In this document: in pieces, positions 56,669 to 64,000 of the stretch
Position numbering within the stretch: the stretch's first letter is position 1
How the letters are laid out: every line of letters starts with the position of its first letter
Source: Myxococcus xanthus
GTDB lineage: Bacteria; Myxococcota; Myxococcia; Myxococcales; Myxococcaceae
DNA: 64,000 nt
Reading direction: 5' to 3'
NCBI RefSeq assembly: GCF_006402735.1
Contig: NZ_CP017174.1
Span: forward strand, 3,289,001-3,353,000
The notes under the pieces: generated by a model
What the model was told of the DNA's origin: nothing
The model's input: only the letters and a program-made list of their open reading frames with translations
The model's database searches: none
Made by a program: the position numbers and the translations under genes

Positions 56669-57814
56669 GTGATTGAAATCGAGACCATCGAGGCATTCGA
56701 GCGGCACCTCGCGGCGGGCGTCGGGTTCGCCAACGTCATCATCCAAGGGCTGGACCTGCGGCGGTACACCCAGGAGCTGGCCTCCGCCGAGCTCGTGGGC
56801 GCCGTCTTCCTGGGCTGTGAGCTGGAGAAGGATGCGCTGAAGGCCACCGTGGAGCACGGGGCCATGGTGTTCCCGCCCATCTCCGGCGTGCCCTATCAGC
56901 CCTACCGTGGCGCGCTGTATACGCCGGAGGAGCTGTACGCGGGCTTCGACCCGGCTCAGCCGGAGTCCTACGCGGACACACCGGATGCGCGCATCTATGC
57001 GCACTGGGCGGCGAACGGGCGCGGCAGTCCTCCCACGCTGCTGGAGACGCTGGCGCAGCGGCTCCACGACCACTCGGTCACGGAGGCCATGCAAGGATTG
57101 CTGTACCGGTCCGGGAGCGTGCGCAAGGTGGTGGCCATCATGGGCGGCCACTCCATGAAGCGCGGCCAGCCGGACTATCGCGCGGTGGCTTCCCTGGCGC
57201 GCGAGCTGGCGCGCCGTGGCTTCTTCATGGTCAGCGGCGGTGGTCCAGGCGCCATGGAGGCCACGCACGTGGGCGCGTGGTTCGCGCGGCGTACGGAGGC
57301 GGAGCTGGACGCGGGACTGGCCATGCTCGCGCAGGCGCCCAGCTACACCGACCGCGAGTGGCTCTCGCGCGCCTTCGACGTGCGCCGGGCCTTTCCCCTG
57401 GGCGAGGACGACCAGCCGTACTGCGCCAGCCTGGGCATCCCCACGTGGCACTACGGGCACGAACCGCCCAACCCCTTCGCCACGCACATCGCGAAGTACT
57501 TCGCCAACAGCGTGCGGGAAGACGGTCTGCTGACCATCGCCAAGGGCGGCATCGTCTACTCACCCGGCAGCGCGGGCACCATCCAGGAGGTGTTCCAGGA
57601 CGCGTGCCAGAACCACTACAACTCGCTGGGCGTCATCAGCCCCATGATCTTCCTGGGCACCGAGTTCTGGACGCGCACCCGGCCCGTGTACCCGCTGCTG
57701 CACCAACTGGCGCAGGGCTACGACTATGCGCGCTACCTCATGCTCACGGATTCGCAGGAGGAGGTCGTCCGGGCGCTGGAGGCGTATGACCGCGAGGCGC
57801 ACCCGTCTCCCTGA
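56669..57814 (+). CDS. LOG-like Rossmann-fold protein
   Basis: About 381 aa with GTG start. Contains the LOG/TIGR00730-type nucleotide-binding features: VVAIMGGHSMKRG, FFMVSGGGPGAMEATHVGAW and YSPGSAGTIQEVFQDA (PGSAGT for the usual PGGxGT), so cytokinin-type phosphoribohydrolase or lysine-decarboxylase-like annotation would apply. It has a long N-terminal extension (about 130 residues) and an insert with YCASLGIPTWHYGHEPPNPFA not seen in short LOG proteins, placing it in a larger uncharacterised subgroup. Confidence 0.82.
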   Translation: MIEIETIEAFERHLAAGVGFANVIIQGLDLRRYTQELASAELVGAVFLGCELEKDALKATVEHGAMVFPPISGVPYQPYRGALYTPEELYAGFDPAQPESYADTPDARIYAHWAANGRGSPPTLLETLAQRLHDHSVTEAMQGLLYRSGSVRKVVAIMGGHSMKRGQPDYRAVASLARELARRGFFMVSGGGPGAMEATHVGAWFARRTEAELDAGLAMLAQAPSYTDREWLSRAFDVRRAFPLGEDDQPYCASLGIPTWHYGHEPPNPFATHIAKYFANSVREDGLLTIAKGGIVYSPGSAGTIQEVFQDACQNHYNSLGVISPMIFLGTEFWTRTRPVYPLLHQLAQGYDYARYLMLTDSQEEVVRALEAYDREAHPSP

Positions 57815-57979: not shown

Positions 57980-58663
57980 ATGCGGCCCCGGGCCGTCTTC
58001 TTCGACTTGGATGACACGCTGATTGACCGCGCGGGCGCCTTCACGCGCTACGTGGACACGCTCGTCTCCCGTTACTTGTCGTTGCTCCCCGAGGCTCGGC
58101 GTGCCGAAGCCGTGGTCTGGATGCACGAGGTGGATGGGCGTGGCGGCGCGTCCCGGAGCGCGTTCTGTCAGCAGGTGACGAAGGCGTACCCATGCCTGGG
58201 CCTCACGCCAGACGCGCTCTGGGAGGACATGGCGTCGCGCCTGCCTCTGCTCGTCCAGGAGGACGCGGGCGTCTGTGATTGGGTGGCCTCCGTGGCCCGT
58301 TGCCGGCCGGTGGCGGTGGTGTCCAATGGCTCGGCGCGGGTGCAGCGCACGAAGCTGGCCCGCGCGGGGCTCGCGGAGGTGCTGCCGGATGTCTTCCTCT
58401 CCGGCGAGGTAGGCGCTTCGAAGCCGGATGCCCGCATCTTCGAGGCCGCGCTGGCCCACGTCGGACGTTCGCCGGAAGAGGTGCTGCACGTGGGAGACGA
58501 CCCGGAGCGGGACGTCGTGGGCGCCGCGCGGCTGGGAATGGCCACTTGCTGGGTGTCTCACGGCCGGCCGTGGCCCTCCGCGCTGCCGCCGCCCATGTTC
58601 ACGGTGGAGTGCATCCCTTCGCGCCTCGACGACATCGCCGGAGTGCTCAAGCGATGGACATGA
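57980..58663 (+). CDS. HAD-superfamily hydrolase
   Basis: A 227-aa phosphatase-like protein. HAD motif I FFDLDDTLID, motif II VVVSNGSARV, motif III KPDARIFEAAL and motif IV HVGDDPERDVVGA are all present, as in subfamily IA (2-haloacid dehalogenase/phosphoglycolate phosphatase-like). AAGGAG lies 7 nt before the ATG. It overlaps the STM4013-type gene by 10 bp, so it appears to be the first gene of the radical-SAM operon, an addition to the core cluster. Confidence 0.92.
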   Translation: MRPRAVFFDLDDTLIDRAGAFTRYVDTLVSRYLSLLPEARRAEAVVWMHEVDGRGGASRSAFCQQVTKAYPCLGLTPDALWEDMASRLPLLVQEDAGVCDWVASVARCRPVAVVSNGSARVQRTKLARAGLAEVLPDVFLSGEVGASKPDARIFEAALAHVGRSPEEVLHVGDDPERDVVGAARLGMATCWVSHGRPWPSALPPPMFTVECIPSRLDDIAGVLKRWT

Positions 58664-59448
58664 ACGCGGTGGTCGGCACGCACGACCTGCTCTTCATCAC
58701 CCTGGACACCCTGCGCTTCGACGTCGCCGAGGCGCTCGCGGCCCAGGGGCGCACGCCGAACCTCTCCGCGCTGCTGCCTGGAGGCCAGTGGGAGCAGCGG
58801 CACTCTCCCGCGAGCTTCACGTACGCTGCGCACCACGCCTTCTTCGCGGGCTTCCTGCCCACGCCCGCGACGCCGGGTCTACATCCCCGGTTGTTCTCGA
58901 TGCGCTTCGAGGGCAGCGAGACGACGGCCTCGGACACCTGCGTGCTGGACGCGCCGGACCTCGTCACGGGGCTGGCGGGCCGCGGGTACCACACCGTCTG
59001 CATTGGCGGCGTGGGCTTCTTCAACAAGCGCAATCCGCTGGGCAACGTGCTCCCCGGGCTCTTCGCGGAGAGCCACTGGAGCTCCGAGTTGGGCGTGACG
59101 GACGCTCGGTCCACCGAGCACCAGGTGGCGCTGGCCGTCCAGCGGCTGGAGGCGCTGCCGCGTGAGCAGCGCGTCTTCCTCTTCATCAACGTGTCGGCGC
59201 TGCATCAGCCGAACCGGCATTATGTGCCCGGCGCCACCCAGGACTCGCGCGAGTCGCACGCCGCGGCATTGGCGTACGTGGACTCGCAGCTCCCGCCGTT
59301 GTTCGCCGCCCTGCGGCGCCGGGGGCCCGCCTTCTGCATCGTCTGCTCGGACCATGGCACCACCTACGGCGAGGACGGCTTCACCGGCCATCGCCTGGCC
59401 CACCCCGTGGTGTGGACGGTGCCCTACGCTGAATTCCTGCTACCTTGA
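58654..59448 (+). CDS. STM4013/SEN3800 family hydrolase (sulfatase/alkaline-phosphatase fold)
   Basis: About 264 aa. The metal-binding N-terminus HDLLFITLDTLRFD, the HSPASFTYAAHHAFFAGFLP region and the C-terminal VCSDHGTTYGEDGFTGH match alkaline-phosphatase superfamily hydrolases and the STM4013 family. It would act on a sulfate or phosphate ester/phosphonate. The start at 58654 with GGAG 10 nt upstream is preferred; 58660 (ATGA) is an alternative. It sits between the HAD and STM4012-type genes. Confidence 0.85.
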   Translation: MDMNAVVGTHDLLFITLDTLRFDVAEALAAQGRTPNLSALLPGGQWEQRHSPASFTYAAHHAFFAGFLPTPATPGLHPRLFSMRFEGSETTASDTCVLDAPDLVTGLAGRGYHTVCIGGVGFFNKRNPLGNVLPGLFAESHWSSELGVTDARSTEHQVALAVQRLEALPREQRVFLFINVSALHQPNRHYVPGATQDSRESHAAALAYVDSQLPPLFAALRRRGPAFCIVCSDHGTTYGEDGFTGHRLAHPVVWTVPYAEFLLP

Positions 59449-59459
59449 GAAACCGCACC

Positions 59460-60776
59460 ATGACGCGTCTGGAGCAGATGCTCGAAGGGTCGCCCTACGT
59501 GGCGTACCTCTACGGCTACCCGCACAAGACGGCCTACCGGCCCTTCACGCCCGCGCTCCCGCTGGAGTCCGTCTGGGCGGAGGAGCGGCGGGACGCGCTG
59601 TTCCTCTACATCCACGTGCCCTTCTGCGAGATGCGCTGCGGCTTCTGCAACCTCTTCACCGCCGCCGGGCCGAAGCAGGACGTGGTGGACGGGTACCTGG
59701 GCGCGCTGGTGCGCGAGACGAAGCGGGTGAAGGAAGCGCTTGGGACGGCGAGCTTCGCCCGGGCCGCCATTGGCGGCGGCACGCCGACGCTGCTGGACGT
59801 GGCGGGGTTGAACACCGTGTTCGACATGGCCGAAGGCGTCATGGGCGCGGACATGAAGAGCATCCCCGTGTCCGTGGAGGTGTCGCCGGAGACGGTGGAC
59901 GCGCAGAAGCTCCAGGTGTTGCGCTCGCGCGGCACGGACCGGGTGAGCATGGGCATCCAGAGCTTCATCGAGGCGGAAGTGGCCGCGGTGAAGCGGCCCC
60001 AGAAGACGGCGCAGGTGGAGGCCGCGCTGGACCTCATCCGCTCCACGGGCTTCCCCACGCTGAACCTGGACCTCATCTACGGCATGGAGGGGCAGACGGC
60101 GGAGAGCTTCCTCTACTCGCTGCGCACGGCGCTCCGTTACTCGCCGGAGGAGATCTATCTCTACCCGCTCTACGTCCGGCCGCTGACCTTCCTGGGCAAG
60201 AAGGCGCGGGCCTGGGACGATCTGCGCCTTTCGCTCTATCGCGTGGGCCGCGACTTCCTCCTGTCGGAGGGCTACACGCAGGTCTCCATGCGGATGTTCC
60301 GCGCGAGCCATGCGCCGGACGCGGGCGGCCCGGTGTATCGCTGCCAGGAGGACGGCATGGTGGGGCTGGGCTGCGGGGCGCGCTCGTACACGGGCCGGGT
60401 GCATTACTCTTCCGAGTACGCGGTGGGCTCTCGCGAGGTGCGCTCCATCATCTCGTCGTACAGCGAGCGGACCGAGGCGTCGTTCGGTGAGGTGGGCTAC
60501 GGCTTCCGTCTGGACTCCGAGGAGCGGCGCCGCCGTTACATGCTGTTGTCCCTGCTGGCGGACGGCGTGGACCTCGCCGTGTACCGGCAGCGCTTCTGCA
60601 CCGATGCGCTGGAGGACTTCCCGGAGCTGGAGGAGTTGGAGGCGCACGGACTGGCTCGGAAGAACAGTGGGGTGGTGCAGCTCACCGCGGCGGGCGTGGA
60701 GCGCTCCGACCTGATTGGCCCCTGGCTGCACTCCGACCAGGTGCAGGCGATGATGAAGGAGTACGCTTGGCGATGA
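59460..60776 (+). CDS. STM4012 family radical SAM protein
   Basis: A 438-aa HemN/HemW-like radical SAM enzyme. The [4Fe-4S] motif CEMRCGFCN is C56, C60, C63; IGGGTPT and EVSPETVD follow as in HemN-type SAM domains, and DRVSMGIQSF is present. The gene context and sequence pattern fit STM4012 rather than coproporphyrinogen dehydrogenase. Starts 11 bp after the STM4013-type stop; its own stop overlaps the next ATG (ATGA). Reaction unknown. Confidence 0.88.
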   Translation: MTRLEQMLEGSPYVAYLYGYPHKTAYRPFTPALPLESVWAEERRDALFLYIHVPFCEMRCGFCNLFTAAGPKQDVVDGYLGALVRETKRVKEALGTASFARAAIGGGTPTLLDVAGLNTVFDMAEGVMGADMKSIPVSVEVSPETVDAQKLQVLRSRGTDRVSMGIQSFIEAEVAAVKRPQKTAQVEAALDLIRSTGFPTLNLDLIYGMEGQTAESFLYSLRTALRYSPEEIYLYPLYVRPLTFLGKKARAWDDLRLSLYRVGRDFLLSEGYTQVSMRMFRASHAPDAGGPVYRCQEDGMVGLGCGARSYTGRVHYSSEYAVGSREVRSIISSYSERTEASFGEVGYGFRLDSEERRRRYMLLSLLADGVDLAVYRQRFCTDALEDFPELEELEAHGLARKNSGVVQLTAAGVERSDLIGPWLHSDQVQAMMKEYAWR

Positions 60777-61636
60777 AGCTCACCGTGCTCTATCGGGGCC
60801 CGCTGTCCAGCTGCAACTACGGTTGCGAGTACTGCCCCTTCGGCAAGTGGAAGCACACCGACGAGGAGCTGGCCAAGGACCGCGCGGACCTGGAGCGATT
60901 CGTCGCGTGGGTGGAGGCGCGTACGCAGGACACGGTGTCGGTGTTCTTCACGCCGTGGGGCGAGGCGCTCATCTGGCCCTGGTACCAGGAGGCGCTGGCG
61001 CGCCTGTCCCACCTGCCGCACGTGGAGCGGTTGGCCATCCAGACGAACCTGTCCTGCAAGCTGGACTGGGTGGCCCAGGCGCGCGCGGACAAGCTGGGCA
61101 TCTGGGCCACGTACCATCCGGAGTGGACCAAGCGGCACCGCTTCGTGGCCCAGTGCGCGAAGCTGACCGAGCTGGGCGTGCGGCACAGCGTGGGCGTCGT
61201 GGGCTTCCTGCGCTTCACGGAGGAGGCCGAGACGCTCCGTGCCGAGCTGCCTGCGGACACCTACCTGTGGATCAACGCGGTGAAGGACGGGCAGGAGGAG
61301 CCGTACATGGCGGAAGACGTGGCGCGCTTCACGCGCTTGGACCCGCTCTTCCCGGTGAACAACACGCGCCACCCGAGCCTGGGCCGCGCATGCCGGGGCG
61401 GGGAGTCCGTCATCTCCGTGGACGGCGAGGGCACGGCGCGGCGGTGTCACTTCATCGAGGAGGCCATTGGCAACATCTACGCGCCGGACTTTGACGCCGC
61501 GCTGAAGCCCCGGCCCTGTGCGAAGCAGACCTGTGGTTGTCATATCGGGTACGTGCACCTGGAGTACCTGGAGCTGGACCGGGTCTTCGGCTCCGGCATC
61601 CTGGAGCGCGTCCCGGCCACGCCCCTGTGGAAGTAG
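60773..61636 (+). CDS. STM4011 family radical SAM protein
   Basis: About 287 aa. The [4Fe-4S] cluster motif CNYGCEYC is C14, C18, C21; FFTPWGEALIWPWYQEAL and IQTNLSC follow. Near the C-terminus are extra Cys (CRGG, RRCHF, CAKQTCGCH) that could bind an auxiliary cluster. An ATGA overlap with the STM4012-type gene gives the start at 60773; the TTG at 60767 with better AAGGAG spacing is an alternative. Two distinct radical SAM proteins in one operon suggest sequential chemistry on one substrate. Confidence 0.88.
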   Translation: MKLTVLYRGPLSSCNYGCEYCPFGKWKHTDEELAKDRADLERFVAWVEARTQDTVSVFFTPWGEALIWPWYQEALARLSHLPHVERLAIQTNLSCKLDWVAQARADKLGIWATYHPEWTKRHRFVAQCAKLTELGVRHSVGVVGFLRFTEEAETLRAELPADTYLWINAVKDGQEEPYMAEDVARFTRLDPLFPVNNTRHPSLGRACRGGESVISVDGEGTARRCHFIEEAIGNIYAPDFDAALKPRPCAKQTCGCHIGYVHLEYLELDRVFGSGILERVPATPLWK

Positions 61637-61670
61637 CTGGAGCGATTCCCGGCAGCGTGAGGTGCGAACG

Positions 61671-62804
61671 TCACGGAAGCTGACGCAAGGCTTCTTGAAT
61701 CTCCCACTCGTAGACGGTGAGCCCGTCGCGGCGGAGGTTGGGGAGCAGGTCCCCGAAGGCATTGGCTTCCAGCACGCGGTGCCCGGTGAAGTGCTCCTCG
61801 TACATGAGGTCGATGCCCACGTGCAGGCAGTCATGGGCCCGCGCCACTGTGCGGCAGCTCACCATGGCATCCGCGAGCTCGTTCCGTGGCACCGCCGCGT
61901 GGAAGTCGTCCAAGTCGCCCCGCCATCCGCCCAGGTGCAGGTTGGTGATGGGCCGCATGCTCTGCCGCACCACCGTGAAGGCCGGTTCGCCTCGGACCAT
62001 CAGCACCCGGCAGTCGAAGTAATCGCCGCCCAGCCGCGCCTTGGGAATCGAGCGCTCCACCTGTGAGCCTTCGCCCAGCAGATACGTGAGGATTTCATCC
62101 ACCTGCTCGGGCTCATCGACGCGGCGAACCTTCAGCGAGTTGTACCAACCCGTCTTCGCCACCTCGATGGTGGTGGTCAGCGTGTCCACCGAGCGCCCCC
62201 GCCGGTAGATGGCGAGACACGATGCGGAGGAGCCACACGACACCTTCACGAACACCTCGCGGCAGTCCTCCGCCTTCATCCGTTCGCGGAGCGATTCCAC
62301 GTCCGTGACGCCATCCATCGGCTCGGGAACCGGCACTCCCAGGGCGGCGTAGCGGCGAGAGGTGATGCGCTTGTCGAAGAGGTCCGCGATGGCGGTGGGC
62401 TTCTGGAGGACGCGCCAGCGCGGATGCGCCGTGAAGATGGCCCCCAGCTCCGTCAGGGCGCGCAGAAAGCCCAGGTGGTGCTGCCGGGGGCTGAGAATCC
62501 GGCCGTGGTCCTCGGGAAGTCGGTCCACCTGCTCCGGCGTCAGGACGGAACAGCCGTGGTCCACTGCGTCCGCGTAGCCCCGCTGGAGCAGGGCCTTCTC
62601 CACGTCCCAGTTTTCGCCCGTGGAATCGATGCGGACGAGCGCCTCCGAGTCCGGCAGGTCCGCCAGGAGGTCCGGTGTTGCCAGTAGCTCACGCCATGGC
62701 ACGACGTGCGCGGGCGGCAGCCCCTGTCTGGCGAGGGCCTCCTGGAACAGCGTGACGCGCCGGTTCTCCGGGTTGCCGATGAGGATGAACGGAGGCGCGC
62801 CCAT
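61671..62804 (-). CDS. STM4014 family protein (ATP-grasp-like)
   Basis: A 377-aa protein. KRITSRRYAALGVPVPEPM, VFVKVSCGSSASCLAIYRR and VLEANAFGDLLPNLRRDGL are the nucleotide and metal-binding pieces of an ATP-grasp fold, which usually makes amide or thioester bonds. It converges with the STM4011-type gene (34-bp gap) and lies 9 bp downstream of the leucine-rich-repeat gene, so these two form the other arm of the cluster. Confidence 0.85.
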   Translation of the reverse strand: MGAPPFILIGNPENRRVTLFQEALARQGLPPAHVVPWRELLATPDLLADLPDSEALVRIDSTGENWDVEKALLQRGYADAVDHGCSVLTPEQVDRLPEDHGRILSPRQHHLGFLRALTELGAIFTAHPRWRVLQKPTAIADLFDKRITSRRYAALGVPVPEPMDGVTDVESLRERMKAEDCREVFVKVSCGSSASCLAIYRRGRSVDTLTTTIEVAKTGWYNSLKVRRVDEPEQVDEILTYLLGEGSQVERSIPKARLGGDYFDCRVLMVRGEPAFTVVRQSMRPITNLHLGGWRGDLDDFHAAVPRNELADAMVSCRTVARAHDCLHVGIDLMYEEHFTGHRVLEANAFGDLLPNLRRDGLTVYEWEIQEALRQLP

Positions 62805-62813
62805 GATGCCGGA

Positions 62814-64000
62814 CTACTCGCTTACCGCGACGTAGCGGCCGCCTTCGTCATCGTCGTAGATGTCGCGTTGGTTCCCTGCCGCCACGTCCGGGCACAACGA
62901 GGCCAACAGCTTCACGCCTTTGCGCGTGAGCTGGTTCTGCGACACGTCCAGCTTCTTGAGGTGCTTGAACGCCGCCGCGTTCGCCACTAGGACCGCCGCG
63001 TCGGAGTCCATCAGCGTGCCCTTCGACAAGTCCAGTGACTCCAGCTGCTTCAGCACCTTGGCCTTCGGCAGCACGGTCGCGAGCTCGTCGGAGAAGGCAG
63101 CGTTGCACAGTCCCAGGTGCTTCAGGTTCGGCAGCTCCGTGGCGTCGAGGATGGGCTGGATGTCGCTCGGGCGGTACCGTCCGCCGTACTCCTCGCTGCC
63201 GAACCAGACTTCCAACTGCTCCAGCTTCGGCCACTTCGCACTGGCGATGGACTGCACCGCGGGCCGAGGAAGGCCGCCCGACTCCATCGTGAAGCGACGC
63301 AGCTCCGGCAGCTCCACCGGCCCCAGACGCACGTCTCCGCCACGCAGCCTCAAGGTGGTGAGGTGGGGCAGGGCCTTGAGCAGGGGCGCGAGGTTCCCCA
63401 GCTTGACCCAGGAGATCTCCGACTCGTCCGGGAAGACGAAGTCACCGATGAACAGCCGCTGAAGCGTCTTTGGCGCCAGCTTGGTGATGACCTTGATGAG
63501 GTCGCCGTACTCGTTGTCACCGTCGTTGTCCGGCAGGCCGAGCGTCAGCTCCTGGAGGAACCGCGCGGAGGGGCTGCGCAGCAGCATCGTCAGTGTCTCG
63601 ACGACGTCGAAGTCGGCGTCCGAATCGTACCCCGGCGCCGCGACGCGCGCGCCACGGATGAAGCCCAGGTGCCACTCCAGTGTCAGGGCCTTCTCGCCGA
63701 GCATCGACGTGAGGCCCACGCCCAGCAGTGCTCCCTGGTGCTTCTTGTACAGGGCCGCGACCTTCCGCTTGAGGCTGGTGGCCTCCGCGCCCTGGGCCTG
63801 TCGCTGCGCGTGCTGGAGGGCAATCAGCTCGCCGCGCGGGTCGCCCTGGCCCTGGAGCCAGTCGGCGTAGACGAGGTAGCCGTCGTCGGAATCCGGAGCC
63901 TGGAGGATGGCGGCCTCCAGCTCCGGGTTCGACTTGGCCGCGGGCGCCGTGTCCTTCGGCTTGATGCGCGTGTACCCCTTCTTCGTCTTCTCCAGGACCT
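62814..64000 (-). CDS. WGR/TIGR02996 plus leucine-rich-repeat protein (STM4015-like), 5' end outside window
   Basis: At least 395 residues visible. The most upstream visible part reads VLEKTKKGYTRIKPKD like the end of a WGR domain, then YLVYADWLQGQGDPRGELIAL (TIGR02996, a myxobacterial/planctomycete-type repeat domain), then leucine-rich repeats (LTTLRLRGGDVRL, LKHLGLCNAAFSDELA, LESLDLSKGTLMD, LKKLDVSQNQLTRKG). The LFIGDF...EISWVKL...LLKALPHL block resembles STM4015 proteins. It is probably a partner or scaffold protein of the cluster. Stop TAG is 9 bp before the STM4014-type start. Confidence 0.78.
   Translation of the reverse strand, partial: VLEKTKKGYTRIKPKDTAPAAKSNPELEAAILQAPDSDDGYLVYADWLQGQGDPRGELIALQHAQRQAQGAEATSLKRKVAALYKKHQGALLGVGLTSMLGEKALTLEWHLGFIRGARVAAPGYDSDADFDVVETLTMLLRSPSARFLQELTLGLPDNDGDNEYGDLIKVITKLAPKTLQRLFIGDFVFPDESEISWVKLGNLAPLLKALPHLTTLRLRGGDVRLGPVELPELRRFTMESGGLPRPAVQSIASAKWPKLEQLEVWFGSEEYGGRYRPSDIQPILDATELPNLKHLGLCNAAFSDELATVLPKAKVLKQLESLDLSKGTLMDSDAAVLVANAAAFKHLKKLDVSQNQLTRKGVKLLASLCPDVAAGNQRDIYDDDEGGRYVAVSE

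Follow-up and report, generated by a model that had tools for sequence, protein, structure and literature searches.

What do the proteins of the STM4011 to STM4015 families make or modify together? We addressed this question in Myxococcus xanthus, at the end of a 64,000-nucleotide stretch of contig NZ_CP017174.1 (positions 3,289,001 to 3,353,000; hereafter, the window), where genes for two radical S-adenosylmethionine (SAM) enzymes (STM4011 and STM4012), a predicted metallohydrolase of the alkaline phosphatase fold (STM4013), a predicted ATP-grasp ligase (STM4014), and a leucine-rich-repeat (LRR) protein of the STM4015 type lie next to a gene for a haloacid dehalogenase (HAD)-type phosphatase. 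No assigned function for these families was found in the literature, which in the parts accessible to us, mostly outside the subscription journals, names them only as table rows. Our analysis favors, as the fairly probable answer, a protein-tethered modification pathway that would act on the terminal glutamate of a conserved STM4015 tail. The families were known by name; what is new here is the conserved tail, the connection between it and a LysX-type ligase, and the recurrence of HAD genes. Together, the terminal glutamate and the ligase class of STM4014 give these unexplained families a pathway with a testable first reaction.

The cluster and the carboxy-terminal tail of STM4015

The four STM enzymes of the window each exceeded their curated NCBIfam cut-offs (250 bits for STM4013, 380 for STM4012, 200 for STM4011, and 175 for STM4014). 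The cut-off of the STM4015 model NF038076 (275 bits) was reached neither by the two STM4015 paralogues of this genome, which scored 226 to 228 and 234 bits, nor in any of 193 Myxococcota genomes, yet the match of the window protein ran to its final residue and to the end of the profile. On the strength of this span, we class it as a divergent, WGR-fused relative of STM4015 that stands outside the family by the curated rule. The family placement made in a preliminary description of the window, drawn from the sequence alone, thus held, with STM4015 remaining below its curated cut-off (228 versus 275 bits). The WGR and TIGR02996 domains that had been read in the LRR protein were confirmed by domain matches and precede the LRR, and the WGR fusion extends beyond the myxobacteria, to Bacteroides and planctomycete loci.

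The gene neighborhood was surveyed in 80 genome loci, the best of at least 583 STM4011 relatives from a scan of one-per-species genomes; since they were chosen as the closest matches to the window's STM4011, they form a nonrandom sample that leans toward the window's version. Ten of 14 plasmid matches were read as well. By local hidden Markov models (HMMs), all five families stood together in 61 of the 80 genome loci, each time in a stretch no longer than 18.9 kb, and in 7 of the 10 plasmid loci, usually on a single strand in the order STM4015-4014-4013-4012-4011. The co-occurrence of the families noted earlier is therefore real, the genes are not scattered, and the arrangement is not due to chance. 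Of the 193 Myxococcota genomes, 61 had an STM4011 above the cut-off and 60 an STM4014, all 60 being shared, and among the matches listed each family passed once per genome; the sole genome with STM4011 but no STM4014 over the cut-off (G178) is 78% complete. An STM4015-type match of more than 100 bits was present in all 61 genomes with STM4011 and in five Myxococcota genomes without it.

Our interest in the C terminus of STM4015 arose because BLAST matches extended to its very last residue in 11 of the 14 plasmid matches. The tail consists of a variable acidic linker followed by R-[YF]-x-[AS]-[VIL]-[SGAT]-E directly before the stop codon. We collected 111 STM4015-like open reading frames (ORFs), using thresholds of 40 bits for STM4015 and 200 to 400 bits for the other families; two were cut by contig ends. 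Glutamate was the terminal residue in 106 of the 109 uncut ORFs, which span 11 phyla, and R[YF]xxxxE fitted 95 of them. In the partner genes, a terminal glutamate was found in 0 of 70 (STM4014), 2 of 78 (STM4013), 0 of 82 (STM4012), and 4 of 89 (STM4011) sequences. The phyla, taken from the titles and taxonomy lines of the loci, are Myxococcota, Actinomycetota, Cyanobacteriota, Chloroflexota, Planctomycetota, Verrucomicrobiota, Bacteroidota, and Acidobacteriota and, from plasmids only, Deinococcota, Bacillota, and Pseudomonadota. Eleven ORFs, including those of Salmonella, Bacteroides, Methylobacterium, Verrucomicrobium, and planctomycetes, deviated in the R-Y part and retained the terminal glutamate; three divergent planctomycete tails end in GDYE, GDIE, and GDWE. 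In an alignment of 51 sequences, from which three ORFs without the glutamate were excluded, this residue was one of eight invariant columns, and in an alignment of 86 proteins (84 relatives and both STM4015 proteins of the window's genome) it was last in 84. The information content of the tail arginine, tyrosine, and glutamate ranked 12, 7, and 20 among 300 columns of the latter alignment, and that of the linker ranked 114 to 295.

Presence of the tail was compared with presence of the enzymes in 41 ORFs from 40 hand-picked, and hence nonrandom, Myxococcota regions; of the 34 regions that came from genomes with the enzymes, 15 had been chosen mostly for an apparently absent tail, a bias that opposes the association. 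Even so, the terminal glutamate was present in 29 of 35 ORFs from enzyme-bearing genomes versus 1 of 6 from enzyme-less genomes (Fisher P = 0.003), so that in these sequences it is frequently lost where the enzymes are missing. The tail was also sought with a degenerate DNA pattern, whose reversed version served as a control and gave 0 or 1 match per genome. The forward pattern matched the window's genome exactly twice, at its two STM4015 paralogues, and gave 3 to 11 matches in each of five other enzyme-bearing genomes and none in four genomes without the enzymes. By HMM, 25 of the 30 matches lay in clear STM4015-type LRR proteins. Two more had a weak STM4015 match (L172, 26 bits) or the tail only (L175), with an LRR that was weak or out of frame, and three were unrelated: a BRCT-type protein ending in RYESIWE, a 21-residue ORF, and a match with TGG in place of the stop codon. 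The tail thus resides on LRR scaffolds, on many contigs in some genomes. A non-LRR scaffold was considered and rejected, only one non-STM4015 ORF with a tail-like ending being found among 14,387 stop-to-stop ORFs, a count that includes the STM4015 ones. At four loci of enzyme-bearing myxobacteria (L128, L129, L137, and L138), the tails of LRR paralogues end in aspartate (AHRD, AYRD, AYRD, and MVTD, respectively).

STM4014 as the candidate ligase

That STM4014 is ATP-grasp-like, as had been proposed, was borne out by its NF038074 match (Table 1) and by matches to the folds of ArgX, LysX, and RimK. The window protein had no Pfam match above any cut-off and, at an E value of 0.001, no NCBIfam match besides NF038074, which places it outside the LysX model TIGR02144. 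A profile of 49 STM4014 sequences run against PDB sequences matched LysX best (5e-5, with only 32 positions aligned) and then RimK (1e-3), and a Bacteroides-like relative matched the MptN, RimK, CofF, and LysX models, all below their cut-offs (for TIGR02144, 21.5 of the 275.6 bits needed). With an AlphaFold (AF2) model of high confidence (mean predicted local distance difference test score [pLDDT], 94.3), Foldseek returned the ArgX-LysW complex 3vpb as the top match (4e-12), followed by LysX, DcsG, RimK, and LysX/ArgX-LysW-gamma-AAA. VIA-align Z scores were 23.6 for ArgX (3vpb) and 22.1 to 22.6 for RimK and LysX, virtually a tie; glutathione synthetase scored 21.3, and inositol-phosphate kinases and Ddl scored about 20. 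Residues K145, K187, D332, E346, and N348, which we take to be the ATP-grasp catalytic residues, were invariant in the 49 sequences. Judged from model and sequence, STM4014 is an ATP-grasp ligase of the LysX/ArgX/RimK type.

Ligases of this class use a C-terminal glutamate. RimK acts on that of protein S6. STM4014 shares its fold class with the alpha-L-glutamate ligases RimK, CofF, and MptN and matches their profiles weakly; it differs from them in falling below the model cut-offs and in having radical SAM enzymes as partners. LysX, in the part of the report available to us, links its substrate, through the substrate's amino group, to the gamma-carboxyl group of the C-terminal glutamate of LysW; the LysW tail reads EDWGE (PMC10433800). 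Recognition of carriers of the LysW type involves, according to a discussion section, both the acidic extension and the globular domain (PMC9303977). Because the STM4015 tail was read before the ligase was compared with LysX, the two lines of evidence are independent. The tie between the RimK and LysX fold scores would also suit a ligase with a different substrate, be it a metabolite or another protein (such as a ribosomal protein, as for RimK), with STM4015 as a regulator. We regard this as highly improbable, since STM4014 and STM4015 occur in one cluster in 61 of the 80 loci, usually adjacent, and since most genome-wide matches of the tail pattern are STM4015-type LRR proteins (25 of 30 clear, and two more by tail).

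A predicted tethered pathway and its alternatives

In the pathway that we favor, STM4015 would be the scaffold, in which a folded LRR domain is joined through a variable acidic linker to a tail ending in glutamate. STM4014 would phosphorylate a carboxylate of the last glutamate and join it to an amine (an amino acid, perhaps glutamate), with the LRR domain and the tail jointly serving as the recognition handle. STM4011 and STM4012 would then alter the attached group or neighboring tail residues, and STM4013, aided in some lineages by the HAD phosphatase, may act on a phosphate-bearing donor or intermediate. The product would be either released, STM4015 being a carrier, or kept on the LRR protein.

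The radical SAM motifs CEMRCGFC and CNYGCEYC that had been read in the window are present, and the three cysteines of each CxxxCxxC motif (C56, C60, and C63 of STM4012 in 81 sequences; C14, C18, and C21 of STM4011 in 89) were each conserved in at least 97% of the relatives. The same holds for C207, C225, C249, C254, and C256 in the C-terminal part of STM4011, which matched SkfB weakly (E value, 4e-4). Matches of STM4012 among PDB sequences were to HemN (1olt) and to the radical SAM methyltransferase NocN (9p2u). In STM4013, the residues conserved in at least 97% of 77 sequences include D18, D23, T56, D233, H234, H246, and H250, presumably those expected of an alkaline-phosphatase-fold enzyme. 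The HAD phosphatase had been described as a lineage-specific extra; this view did not hold. Immediately ahead of STM4013, 11 of the 80 loci have a HAD-IA gene; eight of these loci are of the Myxococcus type, and the others are from Planctomycetales (L073), Chitinophaga (L117), and an unassigned metagenome-assembled genome (L112). A HAD of another class, HAD-IIB, is encoded by a gene that overlaps STM4011 on a Salmonella plasmid and forms a fusion with STM4011 in Bacteroides. At the Corallococcus loci L052 to L055, no HAD gene was detected with the HAD model. The recurrence of HAD genes across lineages argues that a phosphatase step matters.

The proposed scheme resembles the amino-group carrier pathways (LysW/ArgW with LysX/ArgX; Vzb22), which, in the portions of the reports available to us, likewise combine a folded domain carrying an acidic, glutamate-ending extension with a LysX-class ATP-grasp ligase and later enzymes that act on the tethered group (PMC9303977, PMC10433800). 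STM4015 has the C-terminal glutamate on an acidic tail that is typical of LysW-type carriers; however, LysW is a small zinc-binding globular domain, whereas STM4015 is an LRR protein, often fused to WGR, and its tail reads R-Y-x-A-V-S/G-E instead of EDWGE. Amino-group carrier pathways tailor their substrates with a kinase, reductase, and aminotransferase set, in contrast to the two radical SAM enzymes and the phosphatases found here, and they differ also in that no releasing peptidase was noticed in our rough survey of STM4011-STM4015 neighbors. The bond to the tail glutamate may, as in LysW, be an isopeptide bond to the gamma-carboxylate, and we liken STM4015 to these carriers in its working only. 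Pearlins and other carrier-peptide pathways also carry out chemistry, radical SAM steps included, on the C terminus of an encoded scaffold (PMC9303977, in the part available to us), but they use tRNA-dependent PEARL ligases and a protease, neither of which was noticed at STM4011-STM4015 loci. Should the proposed pathway be correct, protein-tethered biosynthesis would extend beyond small carrier proteins and peptides to include LRR proteins, and radical SAM tailoring would be added to LysX-type ligation.

The earlier suggestion of a pathway whose product or target is a small molecule or peptide is thus supported, with the STM4015 tail as the best candidate for the modified peptide; the pathway requires no separate precursor ORF. 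A small recurring ORF was indeed found: an HEEH-type protein of about 100 residues with GHSH/HEEH-like motifs, encoded beside the cluster in 33 of the 80 loci and in all 33 together with a DUF6745 gene (for example, L034, L035, L039, L041, and L043). Since HMMs detected neither of them at the window's own locus (L003), we consider the HEEH-type protein, the only small protein seen to recur, an accessory and reject it as the best explanation for a precursor. No conserved transporter or peptidase was noticed among the neighbors listed by a rough clustering. The five DUF6745 C termini that were read fit Y-x-P-x-x-E-[TA].

Several observations weigh against the proposed pathway. At least one family was absent from 19 of the 80 loci, the contig end being reached in several, and STM4011 stood without the other four families in two stretches (L061 and L065). 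One genome (G012) had a tailed STM4015, with STM4011 and STM4014 not detected, and six LRR relatives in enzyme-bearing genomes had no terminal glutamate. We found no biochemistry on STM4011 to STM4015. Eleven tail-pattern matches, ten of them of the STM4015 type, in one genome (G182) exceed what a simple carrier would need; many tailed LRR proteins in some genomes, together with a conserved releasing peptidase not noticed in the rough neighbor survey, weaken a pure carrier role, which the likeness to LysW and LysX supports. Enzymes with folds near that of STM4014 include the macrocyclases PsnB and MdnC as well as DcsG, Ddl, and glutathione synthetase. Finally, the tail block in the AF2 model of STM4015 had a pLDDT of 89, and the tail may therefore dock on the LRR instead of being a free arm.

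If docking were all that the tail does, it would be a structural element only and the enzymes would produce an untethered small molecule or cofactor. We judge this unlikely: it is consistent with the confident tail model, with phosphatase-type enzymes that suggest small phosphorylated metabolites, and with the two isolated STM4011 genes, but tail-less relatives still match the LRR profile, indicating that the tail is dispensable for persistence of the family, conservation reaches the carboxy-terminal residue itself, and the ligase class uses a C-terminal glutamate.

The macrocyclase folds point to another alternative, and the combination of an ATP-grasp enzyme with two radical SAM enzymes resembles the enzyme sets of ribosomally synthesized and posttranslationally modified peptides (RiPPs). 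In graspetide RiPPs, made by enzymes such as PsnB and MdnC, the ATP-grasp ligases act on acidic peptide side chains. STM4015 would then be a precursor with the LRR as a very large leader and with a short core; STM4014 would close a ring in the tail in the manner of graspetide ligases, and the radical SAM enzymes would, earlier or later, cross-link the conserved tyrosine. A tyrosine or phenylalanine does stand five residues before the end in 84 of 86 STM4015 proteins (71 and 13, respectively). Unlike graspetides, however, STM4015 tails offer no conserved ring acceptor: there is no invariant serine, threonine, or lysine, the residue before the terminal glutamate varying among the 86 proteins (G in 35, S in 30, A in 12, and T in 4). 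In some phyla, R-[YF] is shifted or absent while the last glutamate is retained, and ring formation needs no glutamate at the final position. We therefore hold a RiPP-like role to be quite unlikely.

Locus layout and the adjacent conflict system

All gene positions given in the preliminary description were confirmed (Table 1), and the coordinates bear out its two convergent arms with overlapping genes: HAD overlaps STM4013, STM4012 overlaps STM4011, and 34 bp separate the end of STM4011 from that of STM4014. An alternative TTG start of STM4012 lies at position 59445, and the LRR gene extends 163 bases beyond the window edge. The window's genome is a single contig of 9.3 Mb, and the closest named locus bears the title Myxococcus, with an STM4011 98% identical to that of the window.

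Table 1. Features of the cluster in the window and of the genes beyond its edge
Feature	Position	Strand	Evidence or remark
HAD-IA phosphatase	57980..58663	+	3' end overlaps STM4013 start
STM4013/SEN3800 family alkaline-phosphatase-fold metallohydrolase	58654..59448	+	NF038075, 437.8 bits
STM4012 family radical SAM enzyme, HemN/NocN-like	59460..60776	+	NF006067, 616 bits
STM4011 family radical SAM enzyme with C-terminal Cys-rich (SPASM/twitch-like) region	60773..61636	+	NF038073, 408 bits
STM4014, predicted ATP-grasp ligase of LysX/ArgX/RimK type	61671..62804	-	NF038074, 387 bits; fold
STM4015-type WGR-TIGR02996-LRR protein	62814..64000, on to ~64163 outside window	-	NF038076, 228 bits, under cut-off
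STM4015 C-terminal tail: acidic linker and terminal RYVAVSE, proposed ligation site	62817..62876	-	
FtsH-type vWA-MoxR ternary conflict genes	L003:6694-13490 and L242:498-2877, beyond window	same strand as STM4015	

The strand that encodes STM4015 carries, upstream of it, another tailed WGR-LRR paralogue and then the genes ivWA, bpMoxR, and fvmX7, a small ORF, and a gene of the FtsH type, with spacings that range from a short overlap up to 50 bp as far as fvmX7. From this layout, the ternary conflict genes, the two tailed WGR-LRR genes, and STM4014 apparently form one operon. Matches to PF19997, PF19996, and PF20030 revealed the vWA protein with a helical N terminus and the MoxR protein, and the product of L242:760-2877 matched one AAA domain and Peptidase_M41. 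The genes adjoining the window locus thus resemble the FtsH-type vWA-MoxR ternary systems (Kaur et al. 2020, PMC7159879); in the text of that report, as far as it was available to us, a search that left aside the hyphenated form "leucine-rich" met LRR in one reference only and ATP-grasp 0 times. The STM4015 tail could be the peptide of which that report speaks. With the window genome's own proteins as phmmer queries, a vWA, MoxR, or fvmX7 relative was found in only 7 of the 80 loci, namely, a vWA relative beside the LRR genes at L044, L045, L046, L048, and L051, a MoxR relative at L064, and an fvmX7 relative at L073. Were the proposed pathway correct, tethered modification would be tied to a predicted conflict system in myxobacteria. 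It is conceivable, if rather unlikely, that the modification is permanent: a single set of four enzymes would mature many different LRR proteins in trans by arming them with a synthetic C-terminal group, and the FtsH-type conflict system would deploy the armed protein in Myxococcus. There would then exist a prokaryotic class of chemically armed LRR sensors or effectors.

PADLOC gave weak partial matches only; STM4012, for instance, matched PDC-M51A at 34 bits, and STM4011 matched viperin at 18 bits. Among 48 loci from a viral collection, one (L194) holds all five genes by HMM; this contig carries a Bacteroides-like version, with an STM4011 that ends like the Bacteroides HAD-IIB fusion, and may be host DNA. 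It is related to the version on a Bacteroides finegoldii plasmid (L036:7782-11799), in which STM4011 is fused to HAD-IIB, STM4013 is a fragment only, and STM4012 was not found, but it has all five genes. The STM4011 of a record titled Comamonas sp. KCTC 72670 (L046) is 95% identical to that of the window, and this genome is probably mislabeled. Just 5' of the HAD gene, at window positions 56669 to 57814, a protein with a weak, below-cut-off SLOG/LDcluster4 match is encoded, and relatives of it occur in all eight Myxococcus-type loci.

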